NCBI GenBank assembly: GCA_964017185.1
Contig: OZ024871.1
Coordinates: 24,466,488-24,530,487, forward strand
Source: Rugalucina vietnamica
Lineage: Eukaryota; Mollusca; Bivalvia; Lucinida; Lucinidae
Reading direction: 5' to 3'
DNA: 64,000 nt
Below, in pieces: positions 1,702 to 51,218 of this stretch; the first letter of the stretch is position 1; the number at the start of each line of letters is the position of its first letter. Below the pieces are notes generated by a model. It was not told the DNA's origin and searched no databases. It saw only the letters and a program-made list of their open reading frames with translations. A program made the position numbers and the translations under genes.

Positions 1702-1744
1702 ATGAGTGATAACGCACCACCACCATACCCAGGGGAGAAAGGAA
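1702..1744 (+). CDS. LITAF: LITAF-like gene A, coding exon 1 (start codon, PPxY motif)
   Basis: Encodes MSDNAPPPYPGEKG and the first base of the next codon. The ATG follows an acceptor (ATTTTTCAG ending at 1699) by two bases and the exon ends at a consensus donor GTAAGT at 1745-1750, leaving phase 1. PPPY (residues 6-9) fits the PPxY class that binds WW domains of NEDD4-family ligases in LITAF relatives; the role here is inferred. The transcription start and 5' untranslated exon were not found. Confidence 0.88.
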
Positions 1745-4700: not shown

Positions 4701-7700
4701 TCACATGTAACACAGCAGCAACTGGTTGCTGTGCAAGTAACCAGCTATCAACCCCCATACAATTGCCTTAGATGAAAACCAAAACATTCTCAAGTCAAAC
4801 TTTATGTTGGACAGCCGGAAAAAGTGATGAAATGAAAAGTTTATTGTCATCTCCATTTAAGGTGCATTATCCACATTACCAACAAAAGCAACGTCATCTT
4901 GCCACTCAGTCATCTTGCTACACATTTCGTATGACCTTAGTTGTTGATTATGGGATAGTTGATCCCAAATCAACCAACCAAAATATGTGCTTATTTGATT
5001 TATAACATTGAAATGAAGCTTATTTCATTTATAACATTGCAATGAAGCTGTAATATATGATCAGCCTTATGAACTGCACAGTTGATCAGGGCCTTTTTGA
5101 TAGTCTAATCTTTTTTCCTCTTAAATCCATAATTTTAAGCTTCTAACCCTCTTCTGTGAATGCACAGACCAGTTAGTGTCAGACCAGGTTGGAGACCTTG
5201 AAGAGCAGTTTTCTCACGTCACATCTCATATTTTTTTTTACTATATTTCCAGATCCTGCCTACCCCCCACCAGGTCAAGGTAAGACTACATGTATCTTTC
5301 TCAGAAGTTATAAGCAAACAGAATATCAGTGGGATATGTTCATTATGATGCGGATTCTCAGCTTGCATTGGGCTCAAAATGATGCTTCATTTTCAAGTTA
5401 GAGGGACACGTTATATCATTCTCCATTTCAAATAAAATGAGTAAAAACACTGCTTGTACCTATTACATAGAGGATCTTACATGAGTGGTCATTTCATATG
5501 AAATTTATTAAACGAGCCTTTGGCGAGTTTAATAAATTTCATATGAAATGACCACTCGTGTAAGATTCGTTTTATCATATGACTTCTAAAATATGTTTTT
5601 ATCGCTTTTAAAGTGGACATATTTCCAATGAAAATTTACATTGTTGTTATAGACGTCGTCAATGACGTTATGTATTCCCGCAAAAGTGTTAATTACACGT
5701 GTGGTCATACGATTTTTATGACATGACGTTATCCACTGGAAAACAGCGGCGTCATATGATAAAGTCATTTCTGGCATGTATTTATTTTGGTAGCTTGGCC
5801 AGTTTACTTTAAAATTGGTTGCAGAATACACCTTGTGTACACATGTTACATGTTGTATTTGGTTGTGGCTAGAATGCTTCCATTAAGGCATTATGCATAT
5901 GACACATGATCAGGGCCTTTGTCTGTGCTTTATAAATAGCACAACTCTTCTTAAATGCAAAACTAGTTTGCTAGTGATGAAGGTCATATGCTTTCATATT
6001 GTTTGCTTTCATATGAGCCTTATCATGAGAAAACTGGATATTGGCATAGGTACTGAACAGCTGATTAGTATCTTTGTTTTGCTTCAGGGATAGTACAATT
6101 CCTCTTTTCTTAAATCTCAAATCTTAATTTTCAAAATTCTAGCCATTGTCTCCGATTGTACAGTCCAGTTTGAGCCAGACCTGTCAAAACCCTGAAGACC
6201 AGTTTTCTCATGACACATCTCATATGCTTTCATTTCATCTCATATGCTTTCATTTCATATCATATGCTTTCATTTCATATCATATGCTTTCGTTATTTTC
6301 CACCAGGAAGCCAGTTTCAGCCACCACCCCAGCCTTACCAGCCAGGAGCTCCAGGTACGATAGTTTGACTTTGCAACCAGTACAGGTCTTGAGGTTATAA
6401 AACTTTTTCATGCTCAATTCAACTGAGACTGTTAAAATGTTCAACAATTGTTGGCATATTAACGGTAAGTTGCAAGATCAATGAGGTTAACCTGTTAAGT
6501 GTATTATATTATTTTAACATTTGCAAGCATTTTACATGCTCAACTTAGAAAAGCATAAATAAAGTCTTTATTGTAATCAGACTTGATGAACAAGATGTTT
6601 AACAGATCCTTCATGTACATGCTTGAAAGGAGACCAGTTATAAATTCTTGCTCTAATTATTCAAAGTAGTTACCATGTATATGTGCTTATGCTGCTTAGT
6701 TGAGTCTAGCATTAGAAATGTTTTATAATCTCTGTGGGTCTGGAAAACTCCTAGCTCAGCCAGATCCCAGTCTTCACTGGATAGAAATACTAAGCTGATA
6801 TTTGGGACTTTAAGCTGAGTCAGTTGAAGTTCTGAAGTACATGCAGTTAACAATTAAAGAATTTACATTTCCCCATACTTGCCTCCATTGCTAGTACTTG
6901 CTGTTACCAGTACTTTAGTTATAACAGTTCTAGTTTAGTTTAGTTAAAGTGGTTTGTAATTTTAGTGTCCTCTGTCCAACATTCACAGATGGGCATAGCA
7001 GGTTTAGGCCGCTTTTAAGCATTGATAAGCCGTTGGTTCTCCAAAGCCAAGTATATATGAAAATTATGACTGAAAAAGCTACGAATTGAGTACATTTGTA
7101 CATATTTAAAATATATGGAAAAGTTGACACCTCCAAAATATTATTAAGTATGCTGGAGAACCAATTTTAGAACCACATTTTATGCAAAAAGCGATATATA
7201 GACATACAAATGAACAGCAATGCAAATATTGATGTAAATGCTATCAATTGAAATATCATTGTCATGACAACCATTGTAAGCCATCTAATTAGAACATGAG
7301 AAAAGGAAAAGTGATATGTCCATGTACATGTCAGAAAGTAGTAACACATTTTGTAAAAGGGAGGTTCTTTTTCTCTGAAATCTGATTTTGTTATTTCTCT
7401 TGTTAGAATTATTGACTAGATGGTTGCTTGTGTCATTAAATTGGTAGTATTTGATATCAAGAAGACTCATTATGACACGAACATGATGCTAGTATCCATA
7501 AAGTTCTGTCAAGTAGGCAACCCTGCTGACCAATAATTGATTCCTGGAGTGTACCATTTTCTGAATGAACTTGTGCTTGTGAAATGATAGTAATTTTATA
7601 TGAATGAAGGTTTGAATGAGATTTCTGACACCTTGCACATATAGTAATCACTATTTTAGTTACATTCTAAGATATCAAGTTATTGTGTGCTGAAACAAAA

Positions 7701-10700
7701 ATAGTAGACTTTTACAACCTGACGAAAGTACGTATATAAAGCTACAGAGCAGCACACACTATGCAGGGTCTTTGTTGTTTTCTCAACGTTCACAGGCTTT
7801 CCTGCTTTTGTAGAAAATATGAAAAGTCTTTATTATTCTTGATTTTTTGCATACTACTATACTGCTCTTTTTCTATCTCTTACTGCATATTGTCATGTTG
7901 AAATTTAATAGCCCATGTCAATAGTCATAATTCTGGAACATTGTCAAGCGTGTTGCTACCATATGAGCTTCTGGGTGAGAAAACCAACAATTCGCGTGTC
8001 CTTCTAGGTCTGACACAAGCCAGGCTGTTAACAGCCACAGAAATTTATCAGAGATTTAGAAAGAAGAGGAAGCTTACTATCTATGGAGCAAAAACAAAGG
8101 CTCTGTTCAGCTGCATATTCAGATTATTGAAAGCTCATTAGCTCATTAAATCAAACTTGAAATGTTTCTAGATTGTCATACTTCAATAGTCTTTCATAGC
8201 TTTTATGTGAAAAAAAGCTTAGTGATTAAGTTACAAGTAAATGTGCGCATGTAGTGCATACTGTAAATGTATTTTGTTATTATAAGTATAGCTTCCATCA
8301 ATTCACTGTTTCACTGTCCATATTTCTAATTCTTCTCTGGCTTGTTATATGTTATATAGCCTACCCTCAACAGCCCGGGTATCCAGGTAATGTCTGTGAT
8401 TTGTCCCGTATTTAGAATAGAACAGTTTAACCTCAAATTGGTTTCCTCACTTCTGCATTCCAGATTGATGGCAATCTAAAATGCTCAAAAATTGACATTG
8501 TACTAGAAACGCTTTGATGATAAATGTAGATGCAATTATCAAAAACACATGTACATGTAATTGTCCTTTAACAGTATGTGGAATATGAAAACTGTACTTT
8601 GTGGTTTTCAATGCATTGTTTTATGTAAAAAGATACTTTTGACACTGATCAAAGTGCACATACATTTAGTTTCCATTGTACAACTTGTTAGTTTCCATTG
8701 TACAACATGTACATCATGTGCTGATCAACATATAGATACACATGTATTCCTCAATGGTAAAGATACTAATGAACAAAAATTATATCACTACTACAAAAGA
8801 ATAACCTATCCATCCTGAAGTAGGAAACCAGTTTGTGTAGTTAAAGTTCCAGTTAATTGATGTTGTGTTTTTGGTAAAGAGGCAACATAATTTCTAACTA
8901 TTTCTCCCACAAGCATATTGATACTTGTAGATGGAAAGTTGGCAATCAAAATTATATCTAAGTTAGTGTTTTGTGACTTAATGGATCAGTGTAATAACTG
9001 CTTCATTGTGACTTAATGGAGTAGTGTAACAACTGCTTCATGCCTAACTGGCGTTGAATTTTGGTACTTTTTAACCCCTTCAAAGGCTGCACTTCCATCT
9101 GATCATAGTTTTGTTCTAAATGAATTCTTTGAAAAAATCTGTCTGGCTTATGCTTGGTGTTGGATGTGTATATTAGGTACATGTACTTCAAACAATGAAA
9201 GTTCTACAAATGGATGGAAAAGAAAAAAAAAATGTTGAGAATTAAGTGGACCAAGTCTTATTTGTCTGACATCATTTGTTTGCCTCTTTATCAGCTATTC
9301 AGTTTGAAGTATTCACACCACCAGTCTCTAAAGCATGTCCTTCCCTCTAATACACAACAGGCCTGCCTTGATTTTCACCCAATCGACTTTAATATTTGTC
9401 TCGAAGTTCATGAAGAATGGTATATCCATCTTCAATTTCCATGAAAAACACTATTATGTGGCTAGACTGGCATGTAGCAAACAGTGAATCCCACCCCAAT
9501 TACCAGTAAAATCAGATGAGAATGAGCCCAGCATGATTGCTAAATTCACCTTAAAGTGTTCAAGATTATTGCATGTCTATGAAAAGTTGAAAACAGTAAA
9601 CATATGAAAAAAGTTTTAACATTTTGGTGGTGCACCATAGGTAAACTTTTACAAGGAAATCCAAAACACAGCTTTCACTGCATGTGTTTGAAGGCATGTC
9701 AGCACCAATGTTCATTCACATTCAATGTTGAATCTTGTTTCAGCTTCTATTTGAGATTGTTAGCAGGAATATGGGGCTCTCCTGGAAGGGTGAGCCACCT
9801 CGTGGGAAAACCAACAATGTGGTTTCCGAACAGGTCCGACACAAACCGGCCTGTACAAGCACAGGAAAGAGCTAGAAGCTTGAAATTTCGGATTTAAGTA
9901 GAGGAGGAATTGTACTATCCGAGTAGCGAAAACAAAGGCGCTGATCAGCTTCGCGGTTACCGCGAAGCTGATCTGCGCCTTTGTTTTCGCCTATGCAGAT
10001 TGTTGGTTTTCCCACTAGGTGGCTCATGGTTATTAATATGACTGACATAGGAAGTTTATTCCTAGTGTCTTCATATCCCATCACGATAAAACGTCAGTGA
10101 AATGTATACCCCCTTAAACCACAGTTTTATGTAGTAAAACTGGGGTATGCAGGGGTTTACCTATTTTCCTTATTCTTGGTCCAAAATGACTTCAGCGAGG
10201 CGGTTCTAGCGTGTACCCACAATGTTTTGAGCAAAAATATTAAAAATATCAAAAAGTTTCCGCTGAAATATTCAATTTTTACAGCTGAAAGAAATCTCTG
10301 TATATTGCATGGGCAAGTTTTCATAATGCAATAATGTTTTTGAGATGTTTTATGTGTGATTGTGCAAATATTTTTCTGACATGTCCTTGAGGGCCCCATA
10401 TGTTACTCCTGTTAAAATTATTTTGTTGCTGAACTCTTGATCAGAAAGCTCATACATAGATATGAGCTTTGAGTATAGACAGGCGTTTTTGACTGTCAGT
10501 AGTCATTGCCATTATTTTCAAAGTACACTTTCCATAAGTTCTGAGGTTGATTGTTTCTACATTTCAGTATAAATTTATAATATTTATGTAGCTACTCTGA
10601 AAAGGTGGATGATAGAGTAATGATCTTGTTCAAGTCTCTTATTAACTGTAGTTGCTACATTGTATAAAAAAGTGAAAGAATGATCAAAGAGTATTTAGTA

Positions 10701-13700
10701 ACCGGACTAGGAAATTATTCTTATTATGTGATAACAGATTTAGGTGGCATAAATATATTGATGCTGTGGAGTTAATTTTAAGTTTGGAGGAATTGTATGG
10801 CAGGTTTTGATGATTAAGTGCAGAAACATTTGAAAAACTAAATAAGCTTATGTACCCGTCGTTTCTGATGAGACATATTTTAAGAGATGAGACATATTTT
10901 AAGATCATTCAAATATTCAGAGCTTTGTCGTCAAGCTCATTGCCATGAAAGGGTGTTTGAAATTTTACATTTCTGGAATTACATACATACAAATAAATTG
11001 AACTATTACCAAACTAGATCCAGAAGAAGCCACTCATTATCGTTGGCTCCTCAAGTGCTGCTTGTCATTACTTATTAACTTTTAAATGCTTGTGTTTTAA
11101 AGCCCAGTACAACGCTCCTCCGGGCCAAGTTGGTACAACCGTGGTTGTGTCCCAGCCTGCTTATGCTGTGGTCCAACATTTCCGCGAGACACCAATCCGC
11201 CTGAAGTGTCAGTACTGTCAAGCTGACGTCGTCACGGCGACCTACTACGAGACTGGCACTCTCACTTGGATTGCTTGTTTCGTGATTGCGATTGTGGGGT
11301 AAGTTATAGGTATATAAGCAGACAAGAGTCAAACTTGGTACACACCTGCAACTAGATACCTCAGCTAGAAAAAAAATAGATGTTATTAAATGTGTGGAAA
11401 AGAAGCACCTTTCACATTTTCACATGTACTCATCTCTACATATTCTCTTATAGTTTGCTATCATCCTATTTCTATATTACATGCTTGGCACTTTTTGCTT
11501 TCAGATTTCTCCAATTAAATTATCATTTTAAGGTCTAAAGTAAATTGAAAACTAACTGTTTTGAGTTTTCAAGTAGTCTGTCACTGGATTTTAATTTTCG
11601 CTTTGTGCGTGCTTTCAGATATTTAAAGGTGCTACTCCAGCTTCTTCCTCCTTTTGCACCATTTTTGGAATGCTGCTATTCTCTTAATTTAAATTATCAA
11701 ATGACTGGTTACAACAACAACAACAACAACAAGTGGTGACAACCTGAATTTACCAAGTTATTGTCATTGGTTAACTTTTTTCATCTTTTATAGTATTATA
11801 TGTTATTTAACTCAACATGGAAAAAAGTTGCCTGATAAATCAAATTAAAACTGAGATCCTTGAAGAGCAGTGAACATATTAATGAGAAAGGGGATGGGCC
11901 ATACCTTGTTTTTCTTAGTTTGTTTAGTAAATTGATCCAGTATTACTTGAGAACTCATTTCACGTTAGCCATCTTAGATCTAGCAAAGGCTGAGCAGTCG
12001 GTCCCATTGGAGCACTGGCCTCAAGCATGCATGATATCATTGATATTAGGGGCCATTTACATTTGATAAATCCAATTAAAATTGCCCACCCATGGCTGTG
12101 AAAATAGTGACTTGGAATGTATATATCTAAAGTGTACCCATCCAAGTTTGACTCTTATATTTGATGCAATAGATGATCAGCTTGCAGTGATCTCATTTCA
12201 ACATGGATATATGCTAGTGTGCTTGGTTTGTTTGTGAATACATGCTCTTGCACGGCTAACAAACCTTTAAATGCGTAACCGCCGGTTAAGAAAGAAAATC
12301 CGATTCACGCCCTTCCGGTTCCGCATATGAAGACCAAGAAAAGGTAATCAAAACATACACTACTAGGATCGATTGATGATTATATTTTAGTACAGAAATA
12401 TATCGATTATCTATGAATGCTATTTTGTCACTTATTTACTATTGTAACTCAGCACCAAAGTAGCTCGCTAAATAATTTGATGGTCTTTAAGTTATTTATT
12501 CCCTTCTTCGAACCTGGTGTAACAACAAGGCCAAAGTCGGCGAAATACAACTAAAAATTGGACAATTTGCTGGTAAATATCAAATTTTAGTGATTGTTCC
12601 ACGACAAATTTACAGATATGTATTAACTAAATTGCATCTGATGTCTGTGCCAGTATTTCGTTGTGTTAGTGCCCGTCATTATCGATTTGAAGGGAAGGAA
12701 AAGATGGGTACGCATTTAATCATTAAAATATGAAGGATATATTTCAAGATACGTTTGAAAACCACAACCTGTTCAAGTTATGGTATTTATTTCCCTGTAA
12801 AGCGTTTTGAAAGACATAAAACCAAGAAAAAACAAATTAAAGTATACTTATAATACAGAATGCTGTAAAATCGTCTTCATGAACAGGAATATCATGCATG
12901 TGAACTATTGTATTACATGTATTTCATAGACAGTTTGTATTACTTTATATCAAACATTTTCACTGCAAATATCACAAACACACCAAATTTGAGTAAGCAA
13001 CTATTAAGAAAGGACGAGAGAAGGTGACAATAATCTTCAGCGTAAAACAATTAACAAAAACAAAAACTTTAATACATGTGTTCTATATTGACTATATTGC
13101 TATCATTCTAATGATTAAATTCGTAACCGAAATGTTGACACAGCTTTTAACCACATATGCATAGAATGCATTGGCCAGAGGCAACGAAACTGTCACCAGA
13201 CCTCACACAATGTTAAAATCATCTGCGCACTGTATTGCTTTCCGTTAATATGGACGTAATGAGCGGAAATCTAAAAATATCCCTGCGACTGACCCACATT
13301 TTCGTCGTGTACAATGCAATCCCAACATGTGTTTTGGGGTAGGGAATAAAAATCATGATTATAAAGAAAAATTTCTGGAAATTCTTTGGTGTCCAAATGT
13401 AGCAATGTCTAACTAATAAAATAGCATTGAGAGAATTTATAATATTTGTCTTCGAATCGAAATATTTTACTCGGAAACACGAGCTGCAAAAGTTTGTTTA
13501 CCTTTTGTTGGTCATCTGATGCGAAACCGGAAGGACATGAATCGGATTTCTTTTCTTAACCGCGGTTACGTATTTAAAGGTTTGTTAGCCGTGTCTTGGC
13601 TCACCTGAACTGAAGGCTTAATGGGGAAAATGTGGGAATTAATTATTTACTGACCACACATTAATATTTTTGCAACCATTTAGGCAGTTTGGTAATTTAA

Positions 13701-16700: not shown

Positions 16701-19700
16701 TTGTTTATTTATTTGATAGATAGAAAGGATGTTTAAACTTGGGATATTTTAAACTTCTGTTAAATAATGTATGATGTAGATTTTATGTTTAATATTTAGT
16801 TTAAGGATGTTCGCTGCCAACATTTGACATTTCGGAACTTACGGTTTTTATTTTGTTCAATATCGCGTAAACGGTTGCAGATATTTTCCTAATATTTTAT
16901 ATTTGGATACATATTGATGATATGCATTGAATGAGCTATGAAAATTGTCATTCTAAGGAACTTCATTTTTTCACCCCATTTTCTGCACTTTTTCAGAAAA
17001 TTTTAGTTGTCAGTAAAATTTAGGGGGTAGGGTAGATTAAACTTGCATATTATACATTTTCAAATAAATTGCACCAGTTCTATGTTTATTTTAGCAGCAG
17101 TATATGTGTACATTGTCTTCTAAGTCAGTCTTTCTGTATTTGGTGTGCTAGTTTTAAAATTTTAGGTGGTTTTATGAAATGGGCTTTAAGAAATAAAACA
17201 GCCGAAAAAAGGCTTAAAATGGCGATTTTCAAGTGGTTGGTTCTCTCTTATATGCACACTACCATATATATTTCTTTCTTTTATTCGAACAATATTACCA
17301 AGTTCTATGTTGTGTGAGAATACAAGAAAAAGTTTGAATCTACAAATATGGGTTTGGCACATTTCAAAATATTGATTTTTTCCGACTTTTCAAGTATGGG
17401 GATAGGGTTGGAAAACGACTTGTAAAATTTTGTCATTCACTTCAAGTTGCAAGTTTTTCTATACTTTTGGTCCAAAATAGTCTGCATTACGTAAATATTA
17501 TGACTTTTGAAAGCTTTCTGGGTGTATTTTTGTTCAAGACGGGTATGTTTCAAAGAATTAAAAATTATATTAATTTTACTAAATTTTAAACATGGTGTTC
17601 AGAGGTCTCATTCACAGGCATGTAGCTTGAAAAAATGCACACTACCCTATACATATTTTGTTTTCAAATGTCTTGTATTGTATTTTGGAATCAAAAAAGA
17701 GTGGTTAGAAAAAAAGTTGGAATACTTTTTCATTGGCAGCGAACATCCTTAAATCATTGTTCTTCAAACATTTTAAATGTTGTCATTAGAACGTGAAGCA
17801 GAAATACATTGAATTATGGAATTGTTATTTCTTGCATGAAATGATTTTTTCATACATATCTTTGGTTATTTAGCATAAGTTTTGGCATGCTCCTGTCGAC
17901 TTCTTTGCAGTTGCTGGCTTGGCTGTTGTCTGATCCCATTCTGCATGAACGCCTGCAAGGATGTGATCCACCAGTGCCCCAACTGTCACCAACAGCTGGG
18001 CAGATACAACCGCATGTAGGACCAGTCTTGGAGGAAACAGGAAGTGGAGGAGGGGAGACCAGTCTAAACAAGGGACTTAAATCATGACAAACCAAATAAA
18101 AATTTAAGAAAATCAAAGATATGAACATTGTGTTGGTGATAATGAAATGAAACAAAAATATACTACACTTAAAGAAAAGGGAAAAATCAAAGTGATCATG
18201 TGACATCACAAAAGTATTCAAAGAAGTGTAAGAAATAAAAAACTCCAAAAAAAAAAAAAAGAAGTAAATAAATAACTAGACACAAAAGTAAATGGAAACA
18301 TGAAGCTATAATGACACTCTGTGATTCTCTGATTATGGCTCCTTGATGGAAACAATGCTGACTAATCATAAGAAAATGAAGTTCTGTTTTTAGTATACGA
18401 AGAAAATATTTCAAACATTTTGAAGAAAATATTTAAATGAATGTACATATATTTGGACACTTCTTGTATTATATCAAATGGATTTTGAAAGAAACTTTGA
18501 CATTTTCATTATGAGATGTGAAATCAAAATGATTTCTTTTTTTTTTCTGAGCATATCTCAGTTTTTTGGGAAGATTGTATTTGATGTGTTTTATTTTATC
18601 ATTTTCAAACTTAAACAACAACAAAAAAATACTTTTACTGGTTTTATCTTTTAATCTATGTACAAAGCTTGTATGTTGCAACAGTGTTGTATACATTTTA
18701 TCACAAAAAATATTCAAATAAGTCCTACAAGTAAGCACATATTTTTTATCATTTACATACATGTGTTACATTAGGAGAGTAGATTGTCAATTTTCATACG
18801 GAGGAAAAAATGATAGTCATCTTTTCACAATTGGTTGGGAGATAGAAAATTCTTTTTAAAAAAATTCGGGGTATGTTAGATCAAAGATTTAAATTCTGGA
18901 AATCTGAAAAAATGGGAAAAACGATGGAGCTTTCAAGGAGATGTCTTATGCAGGTTAATTTAATTGAATAACATATCATACTTAAGATCTGGCTGTGATA
19001 GTTTGCTTTTCTTCTGAAACTTTTGTTCTATAATTTTTATTCGGACTTAATTTAGTAGTAAGTACTTATTTTGACTACAAATGTGGAAATCATCATCTAT
19101 TGCTTTTTTTTTTCATCTTTTGCTTTTAGTTTGGGGACAGGCATTGTGCTAGTGCAAGCAAAACATTTTAAATGTCTTAACCAGGTTAATTTAATACCTC
19201 AATCCGTGGAGTTTTTAGGTCTGTACAAATATAAAAATAAGATTTTTTTTCCCCAAAATTTTGGACATGTTTTATTCAACTTTTTAATCTAAATATTAAA
19301 AATAAATTATTTTATCTGTTTGTATGTTTATTTTTCTTTCAAATCCTATGAATAATGCAGTAAGAACCATTATACCCATGCAGTTTATATAAGCATCATT
19401 TCAAAAGAAGTAATGAACTTTATAATGAATATGTGAAAAACATTGCCAGTATGTATCTCTAATTTTGTGATTCCTATTTTTGCTTCTGTGTTGTCTGTTG
19501 TCAGTCCTCACATAGCACAGTGTGACTAACATTGTGAAAGTAATGCAGAAAACTAATTAATCTGCCACATTAATATCAGGATGTTTATAATCAGATATAT
19601 ATTATAATATAAAGTTCATTTTATGTAATCATTGAAAATTAGCTTTGCTCTTAATCATATTTTTCTGTTCTTTACATTGGCTGACATATTTTACTACTTT

Positions 19701-31810: not shown

Positions 31811-31814
31811 AGTA

Positions 31815-33643: not shown

Positions 33644-33670
33644 GTTATGGACAACCACCAATGCAAGGAG
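33644..33670 (+). CDS. LITAF: LITAF-like gene B, proline/glycine-rich cassette exon
   Basis: Reads (G)YGQPPMQG in phase 1 with acceptor TTCATATTTGCAG ending at 33643 and donor GTAGGC at 33671. It is 27 nt, phase 1/1, the same size and phase as exons 2 and 4 of gene A, and splices in frame to 45264. A single short exon, so support is compositional and positional only. Confidence 0.7.
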
Positions 33671-36600: not shown

Positions 36601-39600
36601 CACTAATACTTATAAAGCATATACAGGCTGTATCTGTGGTGTAGTTTTAGTTTTATTGTGAAAGAATGGATGCATTTTATGAGCAAATCCACATGAACAT
36701 ACAATTTTACAATGCTTCACAAACGTCACAAGGTTGTATTTCTTTTGTGGTCCTACATGTATTTGTTAAAGGTTTTGCTGTCGATTTCACACGGAAGTTT
36801 TAAGTTCAGGTAGTGGTATGGCCACCTTTAGTGAAATAGCTGCTCACTTAGCTAATATAATATTCTTTAGAGCCTTCACTTTATGGTCCATTTGATACGT
36901 ATGATATATATTATACCGATCGTAGTAGACTGACGTCACAGCTTTACCATTAACATTATGAAGGAAGTGAATGTATTTGACCAATCGCAACAGGCGAGTC
37001 ATTCAGTTTTATAACGGTAAATCTTTGACGTGAGTCTACGATCATAACAGAGCTAAATAATAATGTGAATACGCAAATTTATATTTTAACAGAATAGATT
37101 CGCAATAAATAAATTTTATTCCATTCCTGTTACTGATTTAATCCTTTTCAGACTTAATTGTTATCAGGTGAGCGATTGTTGCCCTTTTGGCTCTCATTTC
37201 TTTCATTTTTATGACAGATATCCAGTAAATTTAATTTACTAATTGAAATAATTATGGGAGAGGAATGATAATCTGCTATAAATTATAAGTATTTGATTCT
37301 ATAGATAAATACAAAATTGTGACGTACGTTACCATGCCATTACGTAAAATATGTTACCGTTATCATGAAACATGGCCTGTAGTTGATTTGTGTGTGTTTT
37401 TAATACCTTTTAGGACAGACATTCAATAAATTTAATTTCCTAATTGAAATAACTGTGAGAGAAAAATGATAATCTGCAATTAATCATAAGTATATGATTC
37501 TACAGTGAAAATACAAAACTGTTACATACGTTACCATGAAATTACGTAAAATATGTTACTATTGTCATGACGCATGGTCTGTAGTTGATTTTTCGTGTGC
37601 TTTTAATACCTATAGAAGTTTTATTTCGAAAACTGGGATGTTGTTCAGGAAAGGAAGTGTCTACGTTCTGTTTCTGGGACATGGTTATTAATGGGCATAC
37701 TATTTAAATGGGGGTAGGGGAAGAAAATCAACATCTGTGGAGTGACAGAAGGTCACAGAGAGCTCTACTATATGTCATTTTGAAGGGCAAGGACTGTAAA
37801 TAACTATAATAGAAATTTTAATTTGACATTTGATCTAAGCTATATTCTATAAGAAACGAAACACGGTGGATATGCCAAATTACACGGGTTATTTACGTTA
37901 CTTCTGTTGTACCAGTAGTCATGAAATCTAAATATAATTGATTTTGGTCCTGTTAGGTTAGGCAACATCTCTGCTACATATTTAAAGGTAAAGTTCTTGT
38001 CAAATATTTGTTTTTTGTCATAAATCTTGATGATCCCCTTAGTAGCTTGAATTTAAAAATCATATATCGGTAACATATGTAACACGCTCTGGCACGATAA
38101 AGCCCCAGCAGTCAGAGTGCTAACAAGCGGCATTTTGTAGCTTAGGGTACTGGCTTTCAGAAAATATATGTCTACAAAAATCCCCGGCATGGTGCACCTC
38201 TGCCATATACTATGTGTTAGCCTAGTATACGAGTACTTGAGATACTTTATCATTCCGATAGCTCAGTTAGTTTGTAGTTGATTGCAGTGAATAGATTTAG
38301 TTGTTTGCGGTGGTCATTCCTAATATATATATACTAACATTTTTTCTCTAAGCCCAGATTAGATCTTCTTTTAGCAGGTGCAACTCGTCAGATTTGTATG
38401 AACTATTGTATGAACTATTGTTTATCATGTTTATTGTATGAACTATTGTTTATCATGTTTATTGATAATTCTATATAAGCTCTTTCAGTTTATGTCTATT
38501 ATTAGATGTTGTGTTATGATTTTGCATGTTTGTTCCTTATGTACATTTAGCGGACCCTGCTCAGATTCATCTCCAGGAAGCTAGAGGTATACGAGTACTT
38601 GAGATACTGTATCATTCCAATAGCTCAGTTAGTTTGTAGTTGATTGCAGTGAATAGATTTAGTTGTTTGCGGTGGTCATTCCTAATATATATACTAACAT
38701 TTTTTCTCTACGCCCAGATTAGATCTTCTTTTAGCAGGTGCAACTCGTCAGCAAGCGATAATGTTCATAGACTTTAATGTACGATTGAGCGTTCAATGTA
38801 CAAGAGATTATAGCTAGGGTGTTTAGGGAGTATCTTTTCTCTGGAATTTTTATTGTTTTGTATGAACTATTGTTTATCATGTTTATTGATAATTCTATAT
38901 AAGCTCTTTCAGTTTATGTCTATTCCATGCAAATGACTGTTTACCTCACAGCTTTCACAAATCCTCCTCCGCAAATAGGTCTGTTACGACCTGTTGGACC
39001 AGCTCTAATTCTTCTTCACTCTGTTCATCTCATTGATATTGTGTATGTGAATTTTAAGAGTGCTTCTTTGAAGCGTTTATATCTGAAAAATTGAAACTCG
39101 AATTAGGCCGAAATGCATACACCATTTTTCGTAGAGTCAATCTGTTGCTTAGGGAATTTATCTATACTCCAGTCCCTGAGGGGTCATTCGTGTGCACGAG
39201 AGGTCCAGAGAAAAATTTTCCATAAATGGTTAGAGACATATCTGAAGTGCAAGAAAATGGAGGGTGATCGGCTGAAATCATGGTGCGGTCCGAGAAATCC
39301 AAGATGGCCGCCAAGATGGCGGCCGATTTTCTTAAAATGGCTGTATACATAAAATTAGCTACCACAACATGCTTTTTCTTCGTTTTTGGACTCAAAATGA
39401 TTATATAAGAAAAGAATAGATGCAAATAGAAAGTTTCATGCAATTTTATAATGACTAAACATCAAAAATATTTTTCAGGGGCCTGAAAACCATGCAAAAT
39501 TGGTCAAATTTTGATGAAAATATGAGGATGGGGTACAACTGTTTCCTTCACTGCCACTCATTATTGGTATAATGCTTAGAAAACACCATATAAACATTCT

Positions 39601-42600: not shown

Positions 42601-45600
42601 TTGATTTCAATTCAACTGTCTTAAATGTGCGTGGGGTAAATAAACACCATAAATGGAAAATAGCCATATTTCTTTTCCTTGTAAAAATAAATAAAATATA
42701 AAAGTTTGATCCTTTGGAAGCAATGAAAACGTTCAAAGGGAGGTATTATGGGCCATATTGCGAAATTTCATCAAAGACTCATATTCCCAAAGGGGCCAAA
42801 TTATAAAAATAGTGTTAAGAAGATGTAACTTAACATATCTGTTTGAAATAATTCAAATGTTCTTATCGATCCCAAATGATCAAAATAAAAATATAATCTG
42901 CACTATAGCTGAAATACGGGGTGACTTTTCAGGGGCACCACATGGCACATTGTGACACCAGTTGCAGTAATAGCAAAGAAAATGTAATTATTTGATCCTT
43001 TGGAAGCAGTAAAACCTTTAAAGGGTGAAGGTGGGCCAAATTGTACAATTTTGGGTAATAAACCTTCATCTGACCCTTTACAAGCATTCTTCAAGCAAAA
43101 TATCAATACTGTGTGAAATTTACATTAAATAGGACAAATCACGTACGTTTTTCTGATACAAATTTAAGATATTTTGTGTTAAGGATGGGTAAAGTGGCTT
43201 CAAAGCATGCATTTATATTACATTTTATCCATTTTATACATTGTGTGTAAAATAGCTAAGAAGAAGCAAGTTGTGATAATTAAGACTTAAAATTAGTTCA
43301 AAATTTATTTCTTATGAAAGGGTGTGTTTACCCCACCCACTTTTAAGGCACTTTAATCTGAATTCAAGATCAGAATAAATTCGTTCAAGAAATTAATCAT
43401 ATATAGGCTAAGTACTGTCTAATCAAAGTTTAAAAGGTGTTTTCTTAGCATAATACAGCTATCATCAATGAGTGATAATGAAGGTAACAGTTGTACAACT
43501 TCTTCATATTTTCATCAAAATTTGACAAATGTTGTGTTAATATCAGGCCCCTGAAAATATTTTTGAAGTTAAACCACGAAAAAAATGACATGAAACCATT
43601 TGTTTGTATCTCTTCTCTTCTTATATAATCATTTTGAGTCTAAAAACCAAGTAATATCATGTTGCGGTTGCTAATTTGATGTATACAGCCATTTTCAAGA
43701 AAATTGGCCGCCATCTTGGTGGCCATCTTGGATTTCTCTTACAAAAATTGTGTAAAATTGCATGAATGCATGTATTTGTATTACATTTTACCTATTATTA
43801 ACATTTTAAGCCGAAATAACTAATAAGAAGCAAGTTGTGATAACTTAATGAAGCTAAATGGTTATTTTTGTCGAAAGGGTCTGTTTACCCCACCCACTTT
43901 TGAGGCACTTTTATCAGACATCAAGGTCAGAATAAAGCATTTTAAAGAACTTAGTCATTTAGCCTAATGACCAATAAATGTTTATATGGTGTTTTCTAAG
44001 CATTTTATCAATAATGAGTGACAGTGAAGGAAACAGTTGTACCCCATCCTCATTTTTTCACCAAAATTTGACCAACTTTGTATGGTTTTCAGGCCCCTGA
44101 AAAATATTTTTGATGTTTAGTCATTATAAAATGGCATGAAACATTCTATTTGTATCTATTCTCTTCTAATATGATCATTTTGAGTCCAAAAACGAAGTAA
44201 AAGCATGTTGTGGTAGCTAATTTTATGTATACAGCCATTTTAAGAAAATCGGCCGCCATCTTGGCGGCCATCTTGGATTTCTCGGACCGCACCATGATTT
44301 CAGCCGATCACCCTCGATTTTCTTGCACTTCAGATATGTCTCTAACCATTTATGGAAAAAATTTCTCTGGACCTCTCGTGCACACGAATGACCCCTCAGG
44401 GACTGTATTACTACCGACTTCCGTGGATTTAATATTTTAATAGATGCTAACTAACATATAACGACTGAACATACACGTAAAGCTATTGTTCTGTATTATT
44501 TGATCTCTAACATAATTTTGGATAGCATTTTAACGCGTATGATTTTGACTTGTATTTTCGCGTCATATTTTCATTGAAAGTCATTGTGTTTGGCTTACTG
44601 CTAGCTGTAAATTAGCTTGGAACTTTTAGTGAAAATAACATACATAAGGCTAGAAACATTGCTTTTTGAAGTTGACTATTCTAAATGTGGTGTAGCCATT
44701 TGAATGAAAACGTGTGAGTATGTTGCATTTACAACCCTAATTAAAAAACTTGTATCGAGTTAATATAATTTTCGGGCATGTTAACCTTTCTTTTTCAGAT
44801 TGTACTTCAAAAATGGGTGCATGTTAACCTTTCTTTTTCAGATTTTACTTCAAAAATGGGTAACATGTTTATACTTAAATGTTTTGTTCCGTTCGATATT
44901 TTTTCACCCATGATGGCCATCCGATAGGCTAAGAAATTCATTTTCCAGTGAAAAGTTATTATAAAACATTGATGTTATTTGTTTATTGTTGCTTTTATTT
45001 GAAAGATAATATATAAAAAAACTTTGGCAGAAAAATGACTGCCCCCTCGAATGCGATGCGTCTCACAGAATGTTTGGTGTGTTTTAATGCTAACTATATT
45101 GATGAACGCCAAGAAACTTCATTATCTTCCTGATACAGACCATTTAAAGCGATTTTGTGGTTCATGAAAAGTTCTACACGCAGCGCTATCGTCTAAGGAT
45201 TTTATAATTGCATTTGGTATTATATGTATTATAGAATTCACATAGATTGGTTCTAATTTTCAGGCCCTCCTCCACAGGGTGGCTACTACCCACCGCCCGG
45301 ACAACCCGGCCAGGGACCACCAACCACTGTGGTCGTGACGCAGCCCACCGTGGCCGTGGTTCAGACGTTCCGTGAGTCTCCGGTCCATACAAGATGTCCC
45401 CACTGTCAGGCCGAGGTGGTTACCGGTACCACTTATGAGACGGGAACCTTTGCCTGGATCATTTGCGTGGTCCTCTGTGTTATTGGGTATGTATTAAGTA
45501 AGATATATGGGAATAAAATAATTTACATAACATGGGCAATTGAGCTTGTTGATGCTCATTTACAGCCCATCTGTATTCAGAAGAATTTAGTGGTATGTCA

Positions 45601-48600
45601 GTCTATTTTAAGCACCGCCAATCATCATTCTTCACAAGTATGCAAATTCAGAGTTATCAAGTCTTTAACTTTATAATTTTCAACCACTGAGAAAGAAAGG
45701 TTGTGGTTTATTACGATCATTATTTCTTACATCACACACACACGTTTGTTTGTTCGTATTTCACGCACTCACAAAAAGTTACACCCATTAGCATTTAAGC
45801 AAATACGCTTGTTAATGCGAAGTTTACTATGTTCATTTACCAAAGAATCTAAAATAGTGTTACATTAATATTGTTCAACCACACGTATATTACTAAAACA
45901 TGATCTGGTTAAGGTTTTACATGTTTATGTTTTGCACTTCTGTAGAAAACATACAACGCACTTGGGGCATGCGTTTGTTGGTGATATTCTTGTAATTGTG
46001 TTATTGTTGTTACATACATTCTTTGTAAGATGGTATTTCTTATTTGATATGGTGTTTTGTATTCTTGTTGAGATTGATATAAACGTTCCAGATTACTTAC
46101 TTCCATTACAAACCGCCTTAAATTGCTACTCACCACTTGGAATAGGTTTTAACATTTGACAACGAATAATTCATATTTATTCTGTAAAATCAAAAATAGT
46201 TGTAAATTTATATTTTATCTTCTCTGGCAAGCTTAGAATTAGAATAAAGATTCCCAGTCATGTCAAATCGAACGTAATCTTGATATAGAAATTGGAAACT
46301 TTACCTTGGAACGTTTCTATCACATCTCTATGTTAAAATAAAGCTTTGTTTTATCATTGTGAATGTCATTTTTGCAGAATATGTTTTAAATGTTATTCAA
46401 AGATATAAAATAATAGCCTCAGCGACCTTGTAATCCAGGGGTCGTAGGTTTGATCCCGGCCTTCTCCAGTCTGTCGGATGAGACTGTAAACTAAGGTTCT
46501 GTCTCCGTATGACCTTAGCTGATGGTGGGATGTTAAACCCCAACCAACTAACAAACAACCAAAGTATACAAAATGATTACAACATGTGTGTTCAGCTTAA
46601 TTGATAGTAGAAGACAGTGAAATCGTGAATTTGTTATTAGTGTAAAAATGGTAAAACATGACAAAAATGCCACTTATAATTCCCTCGGGACGCCTCTGTT
46701 AAATGTATTGACTTTTGGAGAAAAATATTTTCTCAGATGACGCAGGTGAAATGAAAATTGTCAGCTGCTGTATGTTGAAATAATTCGTTTTGTGTATGTT
46801 ATCGTGGTTATGCTGCCTCGCAAATTTTGTCATTTTTATCGCACCTGCTTATAGCAGGGTGCGATATAGGAGTCCAAATTTATGTCCGTTCGTTCGTCCG
46901 TCCGTCCGTGCGTTCGTTCGTCCGTCCGTCCGTCAACATTTACGTCGAAGTTTGGTTTTCTCGACATCAGAGATAGCTGCGAGTCTGAAACCTTGCATAG
47001 TAATTGTCCCTGACATACCCTTGAAGCACGCACCTTAACCCGGTGCCCTTGACCTATATTTCACGGTCCACTGACTTTGAAAATTTTTACGTCGAAGTTT
47101 TGTCAACATTTACGTCGAAGTTTCGTTTTCTCGACATCACAGATAGCTGCGAGTCTGAAACCTTGCATAGTAATTGTCCTTGACATACCCTTCAAGCATG
47201 CACCTTAACCCGGTGCCCTTGACCTATAATTCATGGTCCACGGACTTTGAAAATTCTTACGTCGAAGTTTGGTTTTCTCGACATCAGAGATAGCTGCGAG
47301 TCTGAAACCTTGCATAGTAATTGTCCTTGACATACCCTTCAAGCACGCACCTTAACCCGGTGCCCTTGACCTATATTTCACGGTCCACTGACTTTGATAA
47401 TTTTTATGTTGAAGTTTGGTTTTCTCGACATCAGAGATAGCTGCAAGTCTGAAACGTTGCATAGTTATTGTCCTTGACACCTTAACCCGGTGCCCTTGAC
47501 CTATACTTCACGGTCTGCTGACTTTGAAAATTTTTACTTCGAGGTTTGGTTTTCTCGACATCAGAGATAGCTGCGAGTCTGAAACCTTGCATAGTAATTG
47601 TCCTTGACATGCCCTTCAACCACGCACCTTGACCCGGTGCCCTTGAACGATATTTCACGGTCTATTGACTTTGCCCGATGCAGGTGCGATATCGACCTCC
47701 GCGGAGTTCTTGTATTAAGATGCCATACCCGACAGGGACTAATGAGGACATAACTAGAGACGATGTGCCAGACTTTGAAAATGCAACGTGAAAGTTACGT
47801 GAAATTACTGTATGTTCATCCGTCATTAACCAGATATGTCGATCTTCGATACAGGATAGTGTTTAGTGCTACGAATTCAGACGATTGTTACTAAGTATTG
47901 TGAAATAATCACAACCATGATTGTATAATTTTCACGCCCAAATGGCTTATGTGTGGTTGCTAATACAAATGTTTAAGCATATCGAGGACATGCATGTTCA
48001 TTCTAGTGACCTGGTAAGTATTTAATAATTAACACTTTTCTCATTTTTATTCTAACTACAAGTTTATTCATTATTTTATCCATGTAAATAATAGTTTGCT
48101 TACTGTCGGTGGCATTGAATGTGGCATGGTAAGTGGGCGCATACAGGCTGTATTGGTGAAAGTAAAATAACGAACTATCTCAAGAACTATAAACAGTCGA
48201 TAGTTAACAACCAACGCGGCTGGCTGGCTGGCTGAGCTGTAGCATGTTTCAAGAATTCTGCATGTTAATAGGTGAAAGTATGAAATGGGACTACTAACAG
48301 TTACATCTGTTCAGCACAATACTGAAAACGACTCATCTTACGGTTCCAGATGCAGTCTTGGCTGTTGTTTCATACCTTTCTGCGTAGATGGGTGCAAAGA
48401 CGTCATTCATGTGTGCCCGAACTGCCGACAGCAGATTGGCAGATGGAGTAGGATGTAATGAAGAAAAGGTTGAAATACATTCACTGGATATGTACTACGG
48501 GTTATATAAGAATATAGGAAGATGGAGTGGGATGAGTGAAGACCAAGATGAAATGCATAAGATCACTGGCGATGGACAACGAGTTAATAACTTTTACAGT

Positions 48601-51218
48601 TGGATGATTGAAAATAAGTTCTTATGTGTTGAGGACAATATTTAAATGTACAACTAGAATATCTATCAACATCGTTGGGTTACGGGATTCTTATTGGAAT
48701 ATTTATTTTTATGTCATGTTATTTCATAGGTGTTCATATATTGTATTTAAGCTGCATTTGTGCGATATCCATGTCCTTTTAAAATGTGCAGAGCATATAT
48801 TTTTTCGATTTTGCTTGTTCTCCCTCCATTGACATTGACATCTGTATTACTTATGGAATACGTTTTAGCCATCCACTGGAGGCCTATTGTTTAGTATCAT
48901 TTCAAGTGGAACATTTGTATTTATGATGTCGGTGAGACAGTAACATGTAATTCCTCGAAAATCTTTAGATACTTGCAGAGGACTGTTATTATGTAATAAT
49001 TTTATTTTAACATGTATGACATATATCTGCTAAACGATTTGTTTCTATGTGGCAATTCAATTTGATAAATTCAGGAAAAATTTAATTGTTTTAGAAATAC
49101 CATTTCCGAATTCGTCTTTCTAACTTTGCTATGGCACTCACATGCAAACAGGACGTGTTTGTATATGAGCCGCTACATGGGAAATCCAACAATCTGCTTA
49201 GGCAAAAAACAAAGGCGCAGATCAGCTTCGCAGTAACTGCGAAGGTGATCAGCGCCTTTGTTTTCGTTACACGGATAGTACAATTCCTCTTCTTTCTAAA
49301 TCCAAATTTCCAGCCTCTGACCATCTTCTGTGACTGTTCAGGCCGGTTTGTGTCGGACCTTGTCGGATCCCAAATTGTTGGTTTTCTCACGCACAGGCTC
49401 ATATTAGAGTTGGTGCCATTGATTGATGCAGGTAATGAATGGCAAATCGTATCCAAAAGTATTCACTTTGGATAGTACTAATGTGTGGTCGGTTTTCCTC
49501 GGAATAAGAGCAGTTATGTCTGCGGTTATTACCTTTAATGCCTCGTTAGTAAATGAAATAACTGTTAATCTGAGAGTAAGGTGGTTCAGCCAATATTGGA
49601 TTTTTCTTGTCATGCAAGATTGCATGTTATATACACATGGAAATAAGTTAGGGAACACCTGTAATAATGTGACTACCAACTTTGGACTGTATATATCATT
49701 CTTTGTAAAAATTATGAAAAGGGTACAAGTAGGCAAAGATCAGGAAAAGGCGCAATCAGAAAAAGATTCCCACTCCAAAAACCGAGGTGGGAAAAAACCA
49801 AACTAACAATCAGGTACTTATACCATGAAACATATCGTAAGCCGAATGAGCAGCTATTTTCCCAATAGGTGGCCACTCAGTTACCTTAACTTAACTAAAA
49901 TTTTGAAACCATACATAAGGCGCCAACAGCACAAAAAAATTATGAAGAATGTTTTGACAATTTGTCAGAATTTGTAGTCTCCAAAGTTGTTTCTATGTGA
50001 AAATGTACGTTCTGGTTATAGTGTCCTAGCGGAATTATTCTTTAAGGCTTTATTTGCAAAATATCCAATAATTTTTGCTTTCCATAGAAACCAATGCAAA
50101 ATGTAGATTTTGTGTGATTGGTTTGTTTGGAGATGAAGCATGAAGTTTTAGGTCCGAAGTCGTTTATTCATTCAGAACGATCACATTCAATATTTTATTC
50201 CTGTTTTGCTTTCAAAAATTGAGTTTTGCGGAGAGCAGAAGCAAAACGGCAAACTTGTATTTAGTAGAAGTGGAGTTTTTCGCATATGGCATATTGTATC
50301 CTCCGTAGCACACAGACAAAATATTACGAATTTCCATAAATTGGTCTGTAGCTAGGCAAAGGTATGAAATATTTGTGATAAAAATTTCAGTATCGCCAGA
50401 AAAAAGGAAAATGGATTTTTTCAAACTTTCCCCAAAGGCTAAAAGTGTCCCCTAACTTATTTCCATGTGTATATAAACATCTAAATGATTTTCATCGTCC
50501 TTTGGGATTTCAGACATGCCATTGATTATGCTTATTAAGTCAATAGAAAAAAAATACTATTTTGCTCTAAACTGTCAACTGTCAATTTGACTGTAATCAT
50601 GATTTTTGAAATAGTGTGTTGATTCATTTTTGTAATAACATGGCATGTCTTTTGCGTATACTTTGTCAGAATGTTCAAGCAAATTGTTAATGTTATGTTT
50701 TTTGTTTTTTTTTTACTATTGTATGTTGTTTTTCAAGTGCTATTTTCAATGCTGATGACTTAATAGTCGATGTTTCTCTGTGTATTCGATAAGGAAATGA
50801 TTCTTAATATTGTCACGAAAGTCTTAAACCACATCATTAAAGACTGTGAATCAAAAAAACAATACTGAAAATCTTGAAATACCTATCAGATGCACAGAAA
50901 GAGTTTTCAAAGTTGGAATGTATTTTTCTCCATTACGTTTACCGATGAAGAAACAGTGTACTTTATAGTACACATACTGTATTTATTATCAAACCTCTGT
51001 GTGAACCTCATATATCTTGTACTTGTGATTTCTATTTATACCAATGACTTTGATTTTAAGATTCCTAGACAAGACATTCTTTTCAAATTTAGCATACATA
51101 TGTTTTCAGCTGTGACCTGGGATGTTGCCTCATACCATTCTGCGTCGATGGCTGCAAGGATGTTGTGCACATGTGCCCAAACTGTCGTCAACAGATTGCT
51201 CGCTGGAGTCGTATGTAG
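33644..51218 (+). CDS. LITAF: LITAF-like gene B or downstream half of one complex LITAF locus (coding span; no start exon seen)
   Basis: Exons 33644-33670, 45264-45486, then either 48350-48458 or 51110-51218. Phases match exactly those of gene A. The visible product has a Gly/Pro/Tyr-rich tail, the half-knuckle CPHC, a hydrophobic helix and HxCPNC, ending RWSRM. I searched 20.3-33.6 kb for an initiator exon resembling MSDNAPPPYP and saw none, so either a short, diverged first exon was missed or these exons are spliced to the 5' exons of gene A. Expected role as for LITAF family members: endosomal membrane adaptor, possibly immune-related. The intron 33671-45263 is filled with transposons. Confidence 0.75.
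34014..34248. mobile_element. GAGCC palindromic MITE, copy 5 (complete, 235 bp)
   Basis: GAGCCGCGACGCGAGAAAAC ... GTTTTCTCACGATGCGGCTC. Perfect core palindrome (GCGAAAACAAAGGCGCTGAT ... to 34213) that would form a ~30-bp stem. Target duplication not evident. Confidence 0.85.
34249..34336. repeat. Dispersed direct repeat, copy 1
   Basis: AGATGTTGTGTTATGATTTT ... CCTGCTCAGATTCATCTCCA, GGAAGCTAGAGGTAT: repeated almost exactly at about 38503-38591. Copies lie on the two sides of the 3.84-kb element. Confidence 0.8.
35544..35625 (+). repeat. SINE-like segment
   Basis: TGGTGACCTAGTTGTACAG resembles an A box region and GGTTGTTCGAAAC a B box about 50 bp later. No tail recognised; weak. Confidence 0.3.
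36506..36618 (-). repeat. R1 retrorepeat fragment
   Basis: AAGGTACACGTAGGCAATGG, AAAAGGCGCAATCAGAAA, CTCCAAAAACCGAGGTGAGG: the R1 3' end on the minus strand, 5'-truncated after ~110 bp. A further opposite-strand R1 piece is near 36795-36860. Confidence 0.65.
37208..37612. repeat. ~200-bp tandem duplication
   Basis: 37208-37410 and 37412-37612 share TTTAATTT, CTAATTGAAATAA, GATAATCTGC, ACGTTACCATG, ATTACGTAAAATATGTTAC and TGTAGTTGATTT in the same order at roughly 80-85% identity. Confidence 0.75.
38219..38930. repeat. ~370-bp tandem duplication flanking the 3.84-kb element
   Basis: TATACGAGTACTTGAGATAC, TTAGTTTGTAGTTGATTGCA, TTTTTTCTCTAAGCCCAGAT and TGAACTATTGTTTATCATGT occur twice, starting near 38222 and 38588. 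The unit also includes the repeat of 34249-34336, showing that the 3.84-kb element sits between members of an older tandem array. Confidence 0.75.
40171..40552 (-). repeat. R1 retrorepeat copy (~380 bp)
   Basis: 3' end at 40171 (GTACAAATAGGCAATGATCA on the plus strand), 5' truncation at about 40552 after TTGTTCGGTCCTCGG. Supplies the uninterrupted AATATAAAATTACTGG site used to define the MITE target duplication. Confidence 0.75.
41018..41510 (+). repeat. R1 retrorepeat copy (~490 bp), inverted relative to 40171-40552
   Basis: TTCTTTTGCTCCGGA, GGGATCTCCATCGTCGGACA, GAGGACCGAACAACTAACTA ... CTGATCATTGCCTACTTGTAC. Together with the previous copy it forms an inverted pair separated by about 470 bp. 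Confidence 0.75.
41511..42540 (-). mobile_element. Helentron-like element with ~200-bp tandem units
   Basis: On the minus strand it begins CCTTTTAGCTTACCTTAGCC, AAAGGCTTATCAAGTGAGCT, then CGTCGTCCGTCATAGACTTA, as at 22157, and continues with about four drifting units of ~200 bp whose plus-strand marks are TATGGG(A/G)(G)GCTAAT.(A/C)CCC and TGGACCCA(A/G)GG. The 3' end is not identified. Confidence 0.5.
42579..42602 (+). repeat. Poly-T tract
   Basis: Run of about 22 T interrupted only by an earlier C; may be the reverse-strand A-tail of an unrecognised retrocopy. Confidence 0.6.
42888..42990. repeat. Dispersed repeat R3, second copy
   Basis: AAAATATAATCTGCACTATA, TACGGGGTGACTTTTC, CACATGGCACATTGTGACAC, CAGTTGCAGTAATAGCAAAG matches 28819-28912. 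Confidence 0.6.
44777..44863 (+). repeat. 43-bp tandem duplication containing a splice-acceptor-like sequence
   Basis: GCATGTTAACCTTTCTTTTT CAG AT.GTACTTCAAAAATGGGT occurs twice in a row (around 44777 and 44820). Each copy holds CCTTTCTTTTTCAG, a good-looking acceptor, 400-450 bp before the real acceptor at 45263. The sequence after it does not stay open in the gene's phase. Confidence 0.75.
45264..45486 (+). CDS. LITAF: LITAF-like gene B, domain exon (first half of LITAF domain)
   Basis: 223 nt, in at phase 1, out at phase 2. Begins [20 protein letters not shown], then [19 protein letters not shown], the zinc half-knuckle [13 protein letters not shown] and a Cys/Val/Ile-rich hydrophobic helix ending VIG. 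Acceptor TTCTAATTTTCAG ends at 45263, donor GTATGT at 45487. It is the clear paralogue of exon 11103-11298, with a longer built-in proline tail that replaces separate cassette exons. Without a downstream exon the open frame would run on into intron and lack the second CxxC. Confidence 0.92.
45487..46413. other. Intron sequence, nothing recognised
   Basis: Intron after the second domain exon. Open frames on both strands here are unsupported by motif or splice signals. Confidence 0.5.
46414..46560 (+). repeat. tRNA-derived SINE
   Basis: AGCCTCAGCGACC, then CAGGGGTCGTAGGTTTGATC as an A/B-box pair (B box GGTTTGATCCC), a ~70-bp body, and the tail GATGTTAAACCCC, AACCAACTAACAAACAACC. Typical mollusc SINE layout. 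Confidence 0.75.
46838..47713 (+). mobile_element. Helentron-like (HINE) element with ~185-bp tandem units
   Basis: ATCGCACCTGC (46838-46848) and GCAGGTGCGAT (47680-47690) form the subterminal inverted repeat. (TTCG/TCCG)n lies at 46887-46933; then about four and a half units with TTTTCTCGACATCAGAGATA, GCGAGTCTGAAACCTTGCAT and CCGGTGCCCTTGACCTAT. CTCCGCGGAG, a perfect 10-bp palindrome (47697-47706), sits just before the TTCTTGT end. Same layout as 22157-23681 with unrelated core sequence. Confidence 0.7.
47714..48349. other. Intron sequence, nothing recognised
   Basis: Between the Helentron-like element and terminal exon a. Contains GGCTGGCTGGCTGGCTG near 48219, a short tandem run. Confidence 0.5.
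48350..48458 (+). CDS. LITAF: LITAF-like gene B, terminal exon a (second half of LITAF domain, stop TAA)
   Basis: One base plus 35 codons and [28 protein letters not shown], ending GRWSRM. Acceptor CGGTTCCAG ends at 48349. Provides the second zinc half-knuckle HxCPxC. Identical length and phase to the gene A terminal exons. It differs from terminal exon b at five of 35 residues and from gene A exon 6a at ten, so the paired copies within each gene are closer to each other than to those of the other gene. Confidence 0.9.
49167..49400. mobile_element. GAGCC palindromic MITE, copy 6 (complete, 234 bp, TSD ATAT)
   Basis: GAGCCGCTACATGGGAAATC ... TTCTCACGCACAGGCTC, with ATAT on both sides. Core palindrome AAGGCGCAGATCAGCTTCGC..GCGAAGGTGATCAGCGCCTT. 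Overlapping 110-120-codon frames here are read through the repeat. Confidence 0.88.
49721..49940 (-). repeat. R1 retrorepeat copy (~220 bp)
   Basis: GGGTACAAGTAGGCAAAGAT, AAAAAGATTCCCACTCCAAA, GCCGAATGAGCAGCTATTTT, CATAAGGCGCCAACAGCAC; 3' end at 49721, truncated about 49940. Confidence 0.75.
49941..51109. other. Interval between the two gene B terminal exons
   Basis: AT-rich, no recognised exon or repeat apart from the R1 copy at its start. Confidence 0.5.
51110..51218 (+). CDS. LITAF: LITAF-like gene B, alternative terminal exon b (second half of LITAF domain, stop TAG)
   Basis: Reads [25 protein letters not shown], ending ARWSRM and TAG at 51216-51218. Acceptor TATGTTTTCAG ends at 51109. 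Same 109-nt coding length and phase 2 entry as the other three terminal exons. Intact, with all zinc ligands kept, so there is no sign that it is a dead copy. Confidence 0.88.

Follow-up and report, generated by a model that had tools for sequence, protein, structure and literature searches.

Two adjacent LITAF-type modules in the bivalve Rugalucina vietnamica, each with a probable pair of tandemly duplicated alternative last exons

Proteins of the LITAF/SIMPLE family, such as human LITAF and CDIP1, are small and combine a proline-rich leader containing PPxY with two knuckles that flank a hydrophobic stretch, as set out in the available part of PMC5095921, and the locus described here follows the same plan. 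According to that part of the article, the two cysteine knuckles of human LITAF form one zinc site that stabilizes the insertion of the hydrophobic stretch, both protein ends face the cytosol, and the exchange C96A or C148A abolishes membrane association. Among bivalves, the accessible sections of PMC4101229 treat the LITAF genes of mussel and oyster as a multigene family, and in LITAF 4, 5 and 6 of Mytilus galloprovincialis the last 38 residues are reportedly all encoded by a single exon that follows a shared junction. Judged by these sections, this is the closest published case that we found, but the mussel structures are partial and belong to separate transcripts, not to two last exons behind one donor. 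Tandemly duplicated terminal exons, of which one is chosen per transcript, are described for Drosophila pip and PGRP-LC in the available text of PMC9013439, which for PGRP-LC also mentions competing RNA pairing as a means of making the choice. The present locus resembles them in its duplicated last exons; however, as far as that text goes, the fly genes are unrelated to LITAF and their mutually exclusive use is reported, whereas here it is deduced from conservation. Among the open-licence PMC matches listed, no title or abstract dealt with a duplication of the last exon of a LITAF gene, and the main text of one insect LITAF family paper mentions neither exons nor introns. Such exons in LITAF are a modest variation on a known trick and not a new kind of gene.

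The window, which is the whole stretch of DNA that was analysed (64,000 nucleotides), corresponds to 24.47-24.53 Mb on contig C3 of the 1.09-Gb genome. It contains two domain exons (D1 and D2) with the first half of the LITAF domain and four terminal exons (T1 to T4) with the second half, together with proline-rich leader exons. On the sequence evidence we think it probable that the locus comprises two neighbouring LITAF-type genes or modules, each with a last exon that was duplicated in tandem and offers alternative ends, D1 being spliced to either T1 or T2, and D2 to either T3 or T4. This arrangement sets the locus apart from the rest of the family in this genome, where each of the other nine D exons found has one T exon. 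The features are as follows.

1700-1744, plus strand: leader exon with start codon, MSDNAPPPYPGEKG; ATG at 1702, phase 1 out, PPPY motif (APPPYPG)
5253-5279, plus strand: candidate proline-rich micro-exon, PAYPPPGQ; phase 1/1, weak by itself, with clustering in its favor
6307-6354, plus strand: proline-rich exon, SQFQPPPQPYQPGAP; phase 1/1
8360-8386, plus strand: candidate proline-rich micro-exon, YPQQPGYP; phase 1/1, weak alone
11103-11298, plus strand: D1, 196 nt, phase 1 in and phase 2 out, GT donor directly after 11298; first zinc knuckle CQYC and first half of the hydrophobic stretch, translation ...CQYCQADVVTATYYETGTLTWIACFVIAIVG
17911-18019, plus strand: T1, second half of the hydrophobic stretch, HQCPNC knuckle and stop; AATAAA 75 nt after the stop
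20210-20318, plus strand: T2, duplicate of T1 (31/35 residues, 89% of nucleotides); first AATAAA 497 nt after the stop
45264-45486, plus strand: D2, 223 nt, phase 1 in and phase 2 out, GT donor directly after 45486; proline-rich stretch, then first knuckle CPHC and first half of the hydrophobic stretch
48350-48458, plus strand: T3, terminal exon with HVCPNC knuckle
51110-51218, plus strand: T4, duplicate of T3 (30/35 residues, 73% of nucleotides)

The original prediction had proposed two domain exons that enter at phase 1 and leave at phase 2, and four terminal exons of 109 nt that enter at phase 2 with intact zinc ligands; both sets were borne out at the borders listed, with AG acceptors at 17911, 20210, 48350 and 51110. 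Each terminal exon consists of 106 nt of sense and a stop codon, corresponding to 35 whole codons plus stop, and all four have open frames and the complete CC...HxCPxC ligands, with HxCPNC in each. In pairwise comparison they have 23-31 of 35 residues in common, and each of them reaches 45.3-47.9 bits alone against PF10601 (zf-LITAF-like; cut-off 23.8 bits), which is far from chance. The expectation that any leader, D exon and downstream T exon would join in frame also held, since all six D-T combinations, spliced by script behind two leaders, stayed open to the stop of the T exon. The leader-spliced products within the modules scored 87.5 (D1+T1), 86.7 (D1+T2), 89.9 (D2+T3) and 88.6 bits (D2+T4), and all four cover PF10601 end to end (profile positions 2-70 or 2-69 of 70). 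As both knuckles are needed in human LITAF, according to the available part of PMC5095921, no usable protein can be made without one of the T exons.

A PF10601 profile search of the whole genome returned 74 candidates, all of which were scored, and 24 matches, which correspond to 11 D exons and 13 T exons. As each exon is scored separately and the counts are lower bounds for large families, a divergent exon may have been missed elsewhere. Nine D exons have one T exon each, with six pairs at 51.37-51.45 Mb and two at 58.56 Mb of contig C9 and one at 24.55 Mb of contig C3, and both surplus T exons lie in the window, one belonging to T1/T2 and the other to T3/T4. In a loose pattern scan of the fetched loci, three further T-like and four D-like strings were found and rejected, because the remainder of the domain was missing. 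All 13 T exons enter at phase 2 behind a common border, two of them (a1 and b1) being one codon shorter near it. The exon border had been noted to cut the domain inside its membrane stretch; this is real, but it is no peculiarity of the locus, since it recurs in 13 of 13 T exons found in this genome. The same result bears on the proposal of a combinatorial splice array, for which we see no support: border and phase are inherited by the whole family, so that phase compatibility is no evidence of mixing, and the T exons pair within modules. Among the paralogs on contig C9, whole-gene tandem duplication of LITAF genes is seen, and in the cluster at 51.4 Mb an individual start exon (MTSVKP...) was identified for five of six paralogs through the similarity among them. 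These five, at 51.410-51.453 Mb, combine the MTSVKP start exon with at least one proline exon (for example APPPNPSQPYPTQPP), which suggests that they are four-exon genes and a useful family standard.

The proline-rich leader exons upstream of D1 were only partly as predicted: of five cassettes, four could be accepted, all of them upstream of D1, and the fifth could not be reproduced. Neither of the 27-nt cassettes exceeds chance when taken alone. With the loosest cassette filter, the plus strand of 124 kb gave three additional matches, one at -12528 and thus beyond the window, one at 22651 within a tandem repeat, and one at 38952; all three were set aside. The filter also picks up the 5' part of D2 itself. 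The minus strand of the same 124 kb gave one match, which is D2 antisense, and 120 kb of the plus strand of contig C9 likewise gave one. Because the filter yields so few matches elsewhere, four cassettes within 6.7 kb exceed chance. A proline-rich start candidate at 6264 on the plus strand is the exon 6307-6354 read upstream through its own acceptor, and apart from the start at 1702 there is no other on that strand. As an acceptor sits directly before the ATG at 1702, a further non-coding exon probably lies upstream of 1700. The PPxY leader would presumably be joined to D1 or to D2.

Alternative last exons are also part of a second reading, which differs from that of two genes in having a common start. 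It describes one transcription unit of about 50 kb, in which the leader (the exon at 1702 plus cassettes) is spliced to D1 and T1 or T2, or past these to D2 and T3 or T4, which would amount to a nested form of the combinatorial array in the original prediction. The D2 exon has an in-frame stop just upstream of its acceptor and no Met ahead of the domain, and it therefore needs an upstream start exon; the sole LITAF-like one recognised is the exon at 1702. A shared leader is conceivable because no start exon of D2's own was recognised, and the exon phases permit the joining of the leader to D2. Our start-exon scan of the 24.9-kb gap between T2 and D2 gave three candidates at a donor score of at least 7 and 34 at a score of at least 6, none of them LITAF-like, and the same scan holds all five homology-identified start exons of contig C9 at a score of 6 and four of them at 7. 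Ten open reading frames chosen from this gap matched no Pfam family over its cut-off, and peptide searches, start-exon scans and cassette scans for a leader exon of D2 yielded nothing convincing; the candidates at 38952-38978 (FTNPPPQI) and 23111-23156 were set aside as weak or repeat-borne.

However, the failure to recognise a start for D2 is weak evidence, because none was recognised for four other paralogs either: no secure start exon came from the scan for both paralogs at 58.56 Mb of contig C9, for the one at 24.551 Mb of contig C3, or for the one at 51.377 Mb of contig C9, where only candidates beginning with MTS were covered and one weak possibility was MMNAPPMSP at 51386966. Moreover, the scan is unspecific, as at a score of 6 it yields 137 candidates over 100 kb of the strand that bears the C9 cluster, and the start exons known there were recognised by similarity and not by the scan. 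Against a common start also stand the proline-rich stretch that D2 has of its own, the individual start exons in the 51.4-Mb cluster and the clustering of the T exons by module. We consider the single transcription unit rather doubtful. Should it nevertheless be realized, the locus would be a single 50-kb gene with one start exon, in which first a domain exon and then a last exon is chosen; it would encode at least four LITAF proteins that differ in half of their membrane anchor, on mRNAs with four distinct 3' untranslated regions. We regard this as equally doubtful.

For two adjacent genes, each with alternative ends, which had also been put forward at the outset, the support comes from the excess of 13 T over 11 D exons, from the lack of a recognisable D exon between the members of a pair, and from selection, which appears strong for T3/T4 and moderate for T1/T2. 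Between T3 and T4 there are 19.5 synonymous changes on 20.0 sites and 8.5 non-synonymous changes on 85.0 sites. The synonymous sites are thus nearly saturated and yet 30 of 35 residues are kept, so that selection must have kept both exons. In a simple binomial test on the raw counts, which underlies all constraint P values given here, neutrality of T3/T4 has P = 2.5e-9 to 2.4e-8, and free drift of one member (omega 0.5) has P = 2.2e-5 to 1.1e-4. The T1/T2 pair differs by 5.5 synonymous and 5.5 non-synonymous changes (dS 0.35, dN 0.067), with P = 0.0085-0.039 against neutrality of both members and P = 0.098-0.25 against one dead member (omega 0.5). T1/T2 is the younger pair, and the case for selection on both of its members is weaker. 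Among the pairwise rates, the rows that combine the shorter exons a1 or b1 with any other exon are misaligned and none was used, only a1/b1 itself being usable.

The members of a pair might also be products of a whole-gene duplication, as seen among the C9 paralogs, after which one D exon was lost and its T exon remained as an unused leftover. The conservation of T1/T2 is compatible with one dead member, and T3 has no canonical poly(A) signal, which would suit such a history. For T3/T4, in contrast, the conservation despite nearly saturated synonymous sites is hard to reconcile with a drifting copy, and all four T exons have open frames, all ligands and AG acceptors. A relic of a lost D exon was also not found: tblastn with the 11 D peptides gave only short weak fragments, namely four rows for the 2.2 kb that separate T1 from T2 (best E 0.22) and 22 rows for the 2.6 kb from T3 to T4, the best of which (E 0.029) lacks CxxC. 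Fragments similar to T peptides between T1 and T2 (to E 0.003) lie on the opposite strand and lack the H.CP.C knuckle, and we took them as chance. An unused leftover in each pair thus seems quite improbable to us. A T exon without a D exon of its own survives only if it is spliced to an upstream D exon, and as no D exon or relic was found between the members, the simplest reading of the sequence is that D2 makes use of both its last exons; for D1 the same is likely.

The poly(A) signals agree only partly with alternative ends. While T1 and T2 are followed by AATAAA at the distances given above, no AATAAA was found for T3 across the 2.6 kb up to T4, and for T4 the first AATAAA comes 818 nt after the stop, with ATTAAA at 634 nt. 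The acceptor tract of T3 is poor as judged by eye. Five of the nine other T exons in the genome also have neither AATAAA nor ATTAAA within the 287-361 nt examined downstream.

With respect to the origin of the pairs, tree tests were made with nine of the 13 T exons, T5, b2, a1 and b1 being left out for long branches or length. In this nine-exon tree, for which the program warns of long branches meeting, T3 and T4 come together with support of 98/98, and T1 and T2 come together weakly (68/11) despite their 89% identity. The cross-module pairs T1+T3, T2+T4 and T2+T3 were rejected with p = 0.008, and T1+T4 gave p = 0.051. Trees of all 13 rows again unite T3 and T4 (99/97 for protein, 100/99 for DNA) and do not resolve T1 and T2, and the DNA tree places T1 to T4 in one weak group (81/94). 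Two separate duplications, one per module, fit these data best.

It is still an odd coincidence for two independent duplications that the only two surplus T exons of the genome sit in adjacent modules. An ancestral D-T-T unit that was duplicated as a whole would account for this, if gene conversion between neighbouring T exons later gave the members of each module the look of sisters. The similarity of T1 and T2 indeed stops about 10 nt before and about 12 nt after the coding part, near the exon ends, as gene conversion could give, and the 1-kb flanks of either pair otherwise have only scraps of 14-38 nt in common, with scraps of 11-23 nt in the first kb of the 3' flanks. Such short similarity does not need conversion, however, because the T exons a3 and a4 on contig C9 (51.433 and 51.439 Mb), at a similar dS of 0.42, match over 121 bp only; the sharp ends of T1/T2 are for this reason not read as a sign of mechanism. 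In T3/T4, a conversion would have to be old, because the synonymous sites are nearly saturated, and the cross-module pairs were rejected in three of four tests, albeit under the long-branch model. We therefore regard whole-unit duplication followed by conversion as unlikely, and prefer the two separate duplications.

The stretch between T2 and D2 is rich in repeats. Tandem repeats lie between LITAF exons at 22263-23496 and 46932-47609, and their units measure roughly 455 bp and 130-170 bp, respectively. A dispersed SINE-like repeat of about 200-250 bp occurs in both orientations near 2413, 9821, 21250, 27160, 34044, 49163 and 54004, one copy being located between T3 and T4 and another about 0.9 kb after T2. 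From 56056 to 64000, and on to about 74.4 kb in window coordinates, a tandem array is found with a unit of about 4.1 kb and pieces that are 96-99% identical; five copies were seen, with matches of a 1-kb probe near 57000, 61120, 65196, 69350 and 73436, and the unit includes a roughly 377-bp imperfect palindrome at 58025-58401. Elsewhere on the same contig, in a muscle myosin gene (C3:16465077-16467095), one head exon (profile positions about 119-154) is present three times in tandem, likely as a mutually exclusive exon cluster. A muscle myosin exon of this contig has its best PDB matches among squid and scallop chains, as suits a mollusc.

For the two-gene reading, which we favor, the following course can be proposed. 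The last coding exon would have been duplicated in tandem, once per gene, and the donor of each D exon could then be spliced to the near or to the far T exon. Use of the near T exon with polyadenylation there would produce one end, and skipping of it the other. Either end would complete the same zinc-stabilized domain for membrane insertion, and the residues supplied would be almost identical. Within the pairs, four residues differ between T1 and T2 and five between T3 and T4, and in both pairs one of the changes lies between the H and the C of HxCPxC. The effect on the protein would thus be minor, with small differences next to the zinc knuckle and in the half of the hydrophobic stretch that the T exon encodes. 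Because the protein hardly changes and the 3' flanks are dissimilar, the choice of the last exon would mainly switch the 3' untranslated region, so that each protein could be made from two kinds of mRNA under different control. The sequence directly shows the exons with their borders and phases, the excess of 13 T over 11 D exons and the constraint on both members of T3/T4, while the use of both ends, the polyadenylation sites, the regulation and a start of D2's own are inferred.

Provided that each module makes use of both its last exons, the duplication of exons would be a second route to diversity in the LITAF family. The combination of nearly identical zinc and anchor halves with unrelated 3' untranslated regions would, if true, also make it testable whether the choice of last exon serves the protein or the mRNA.
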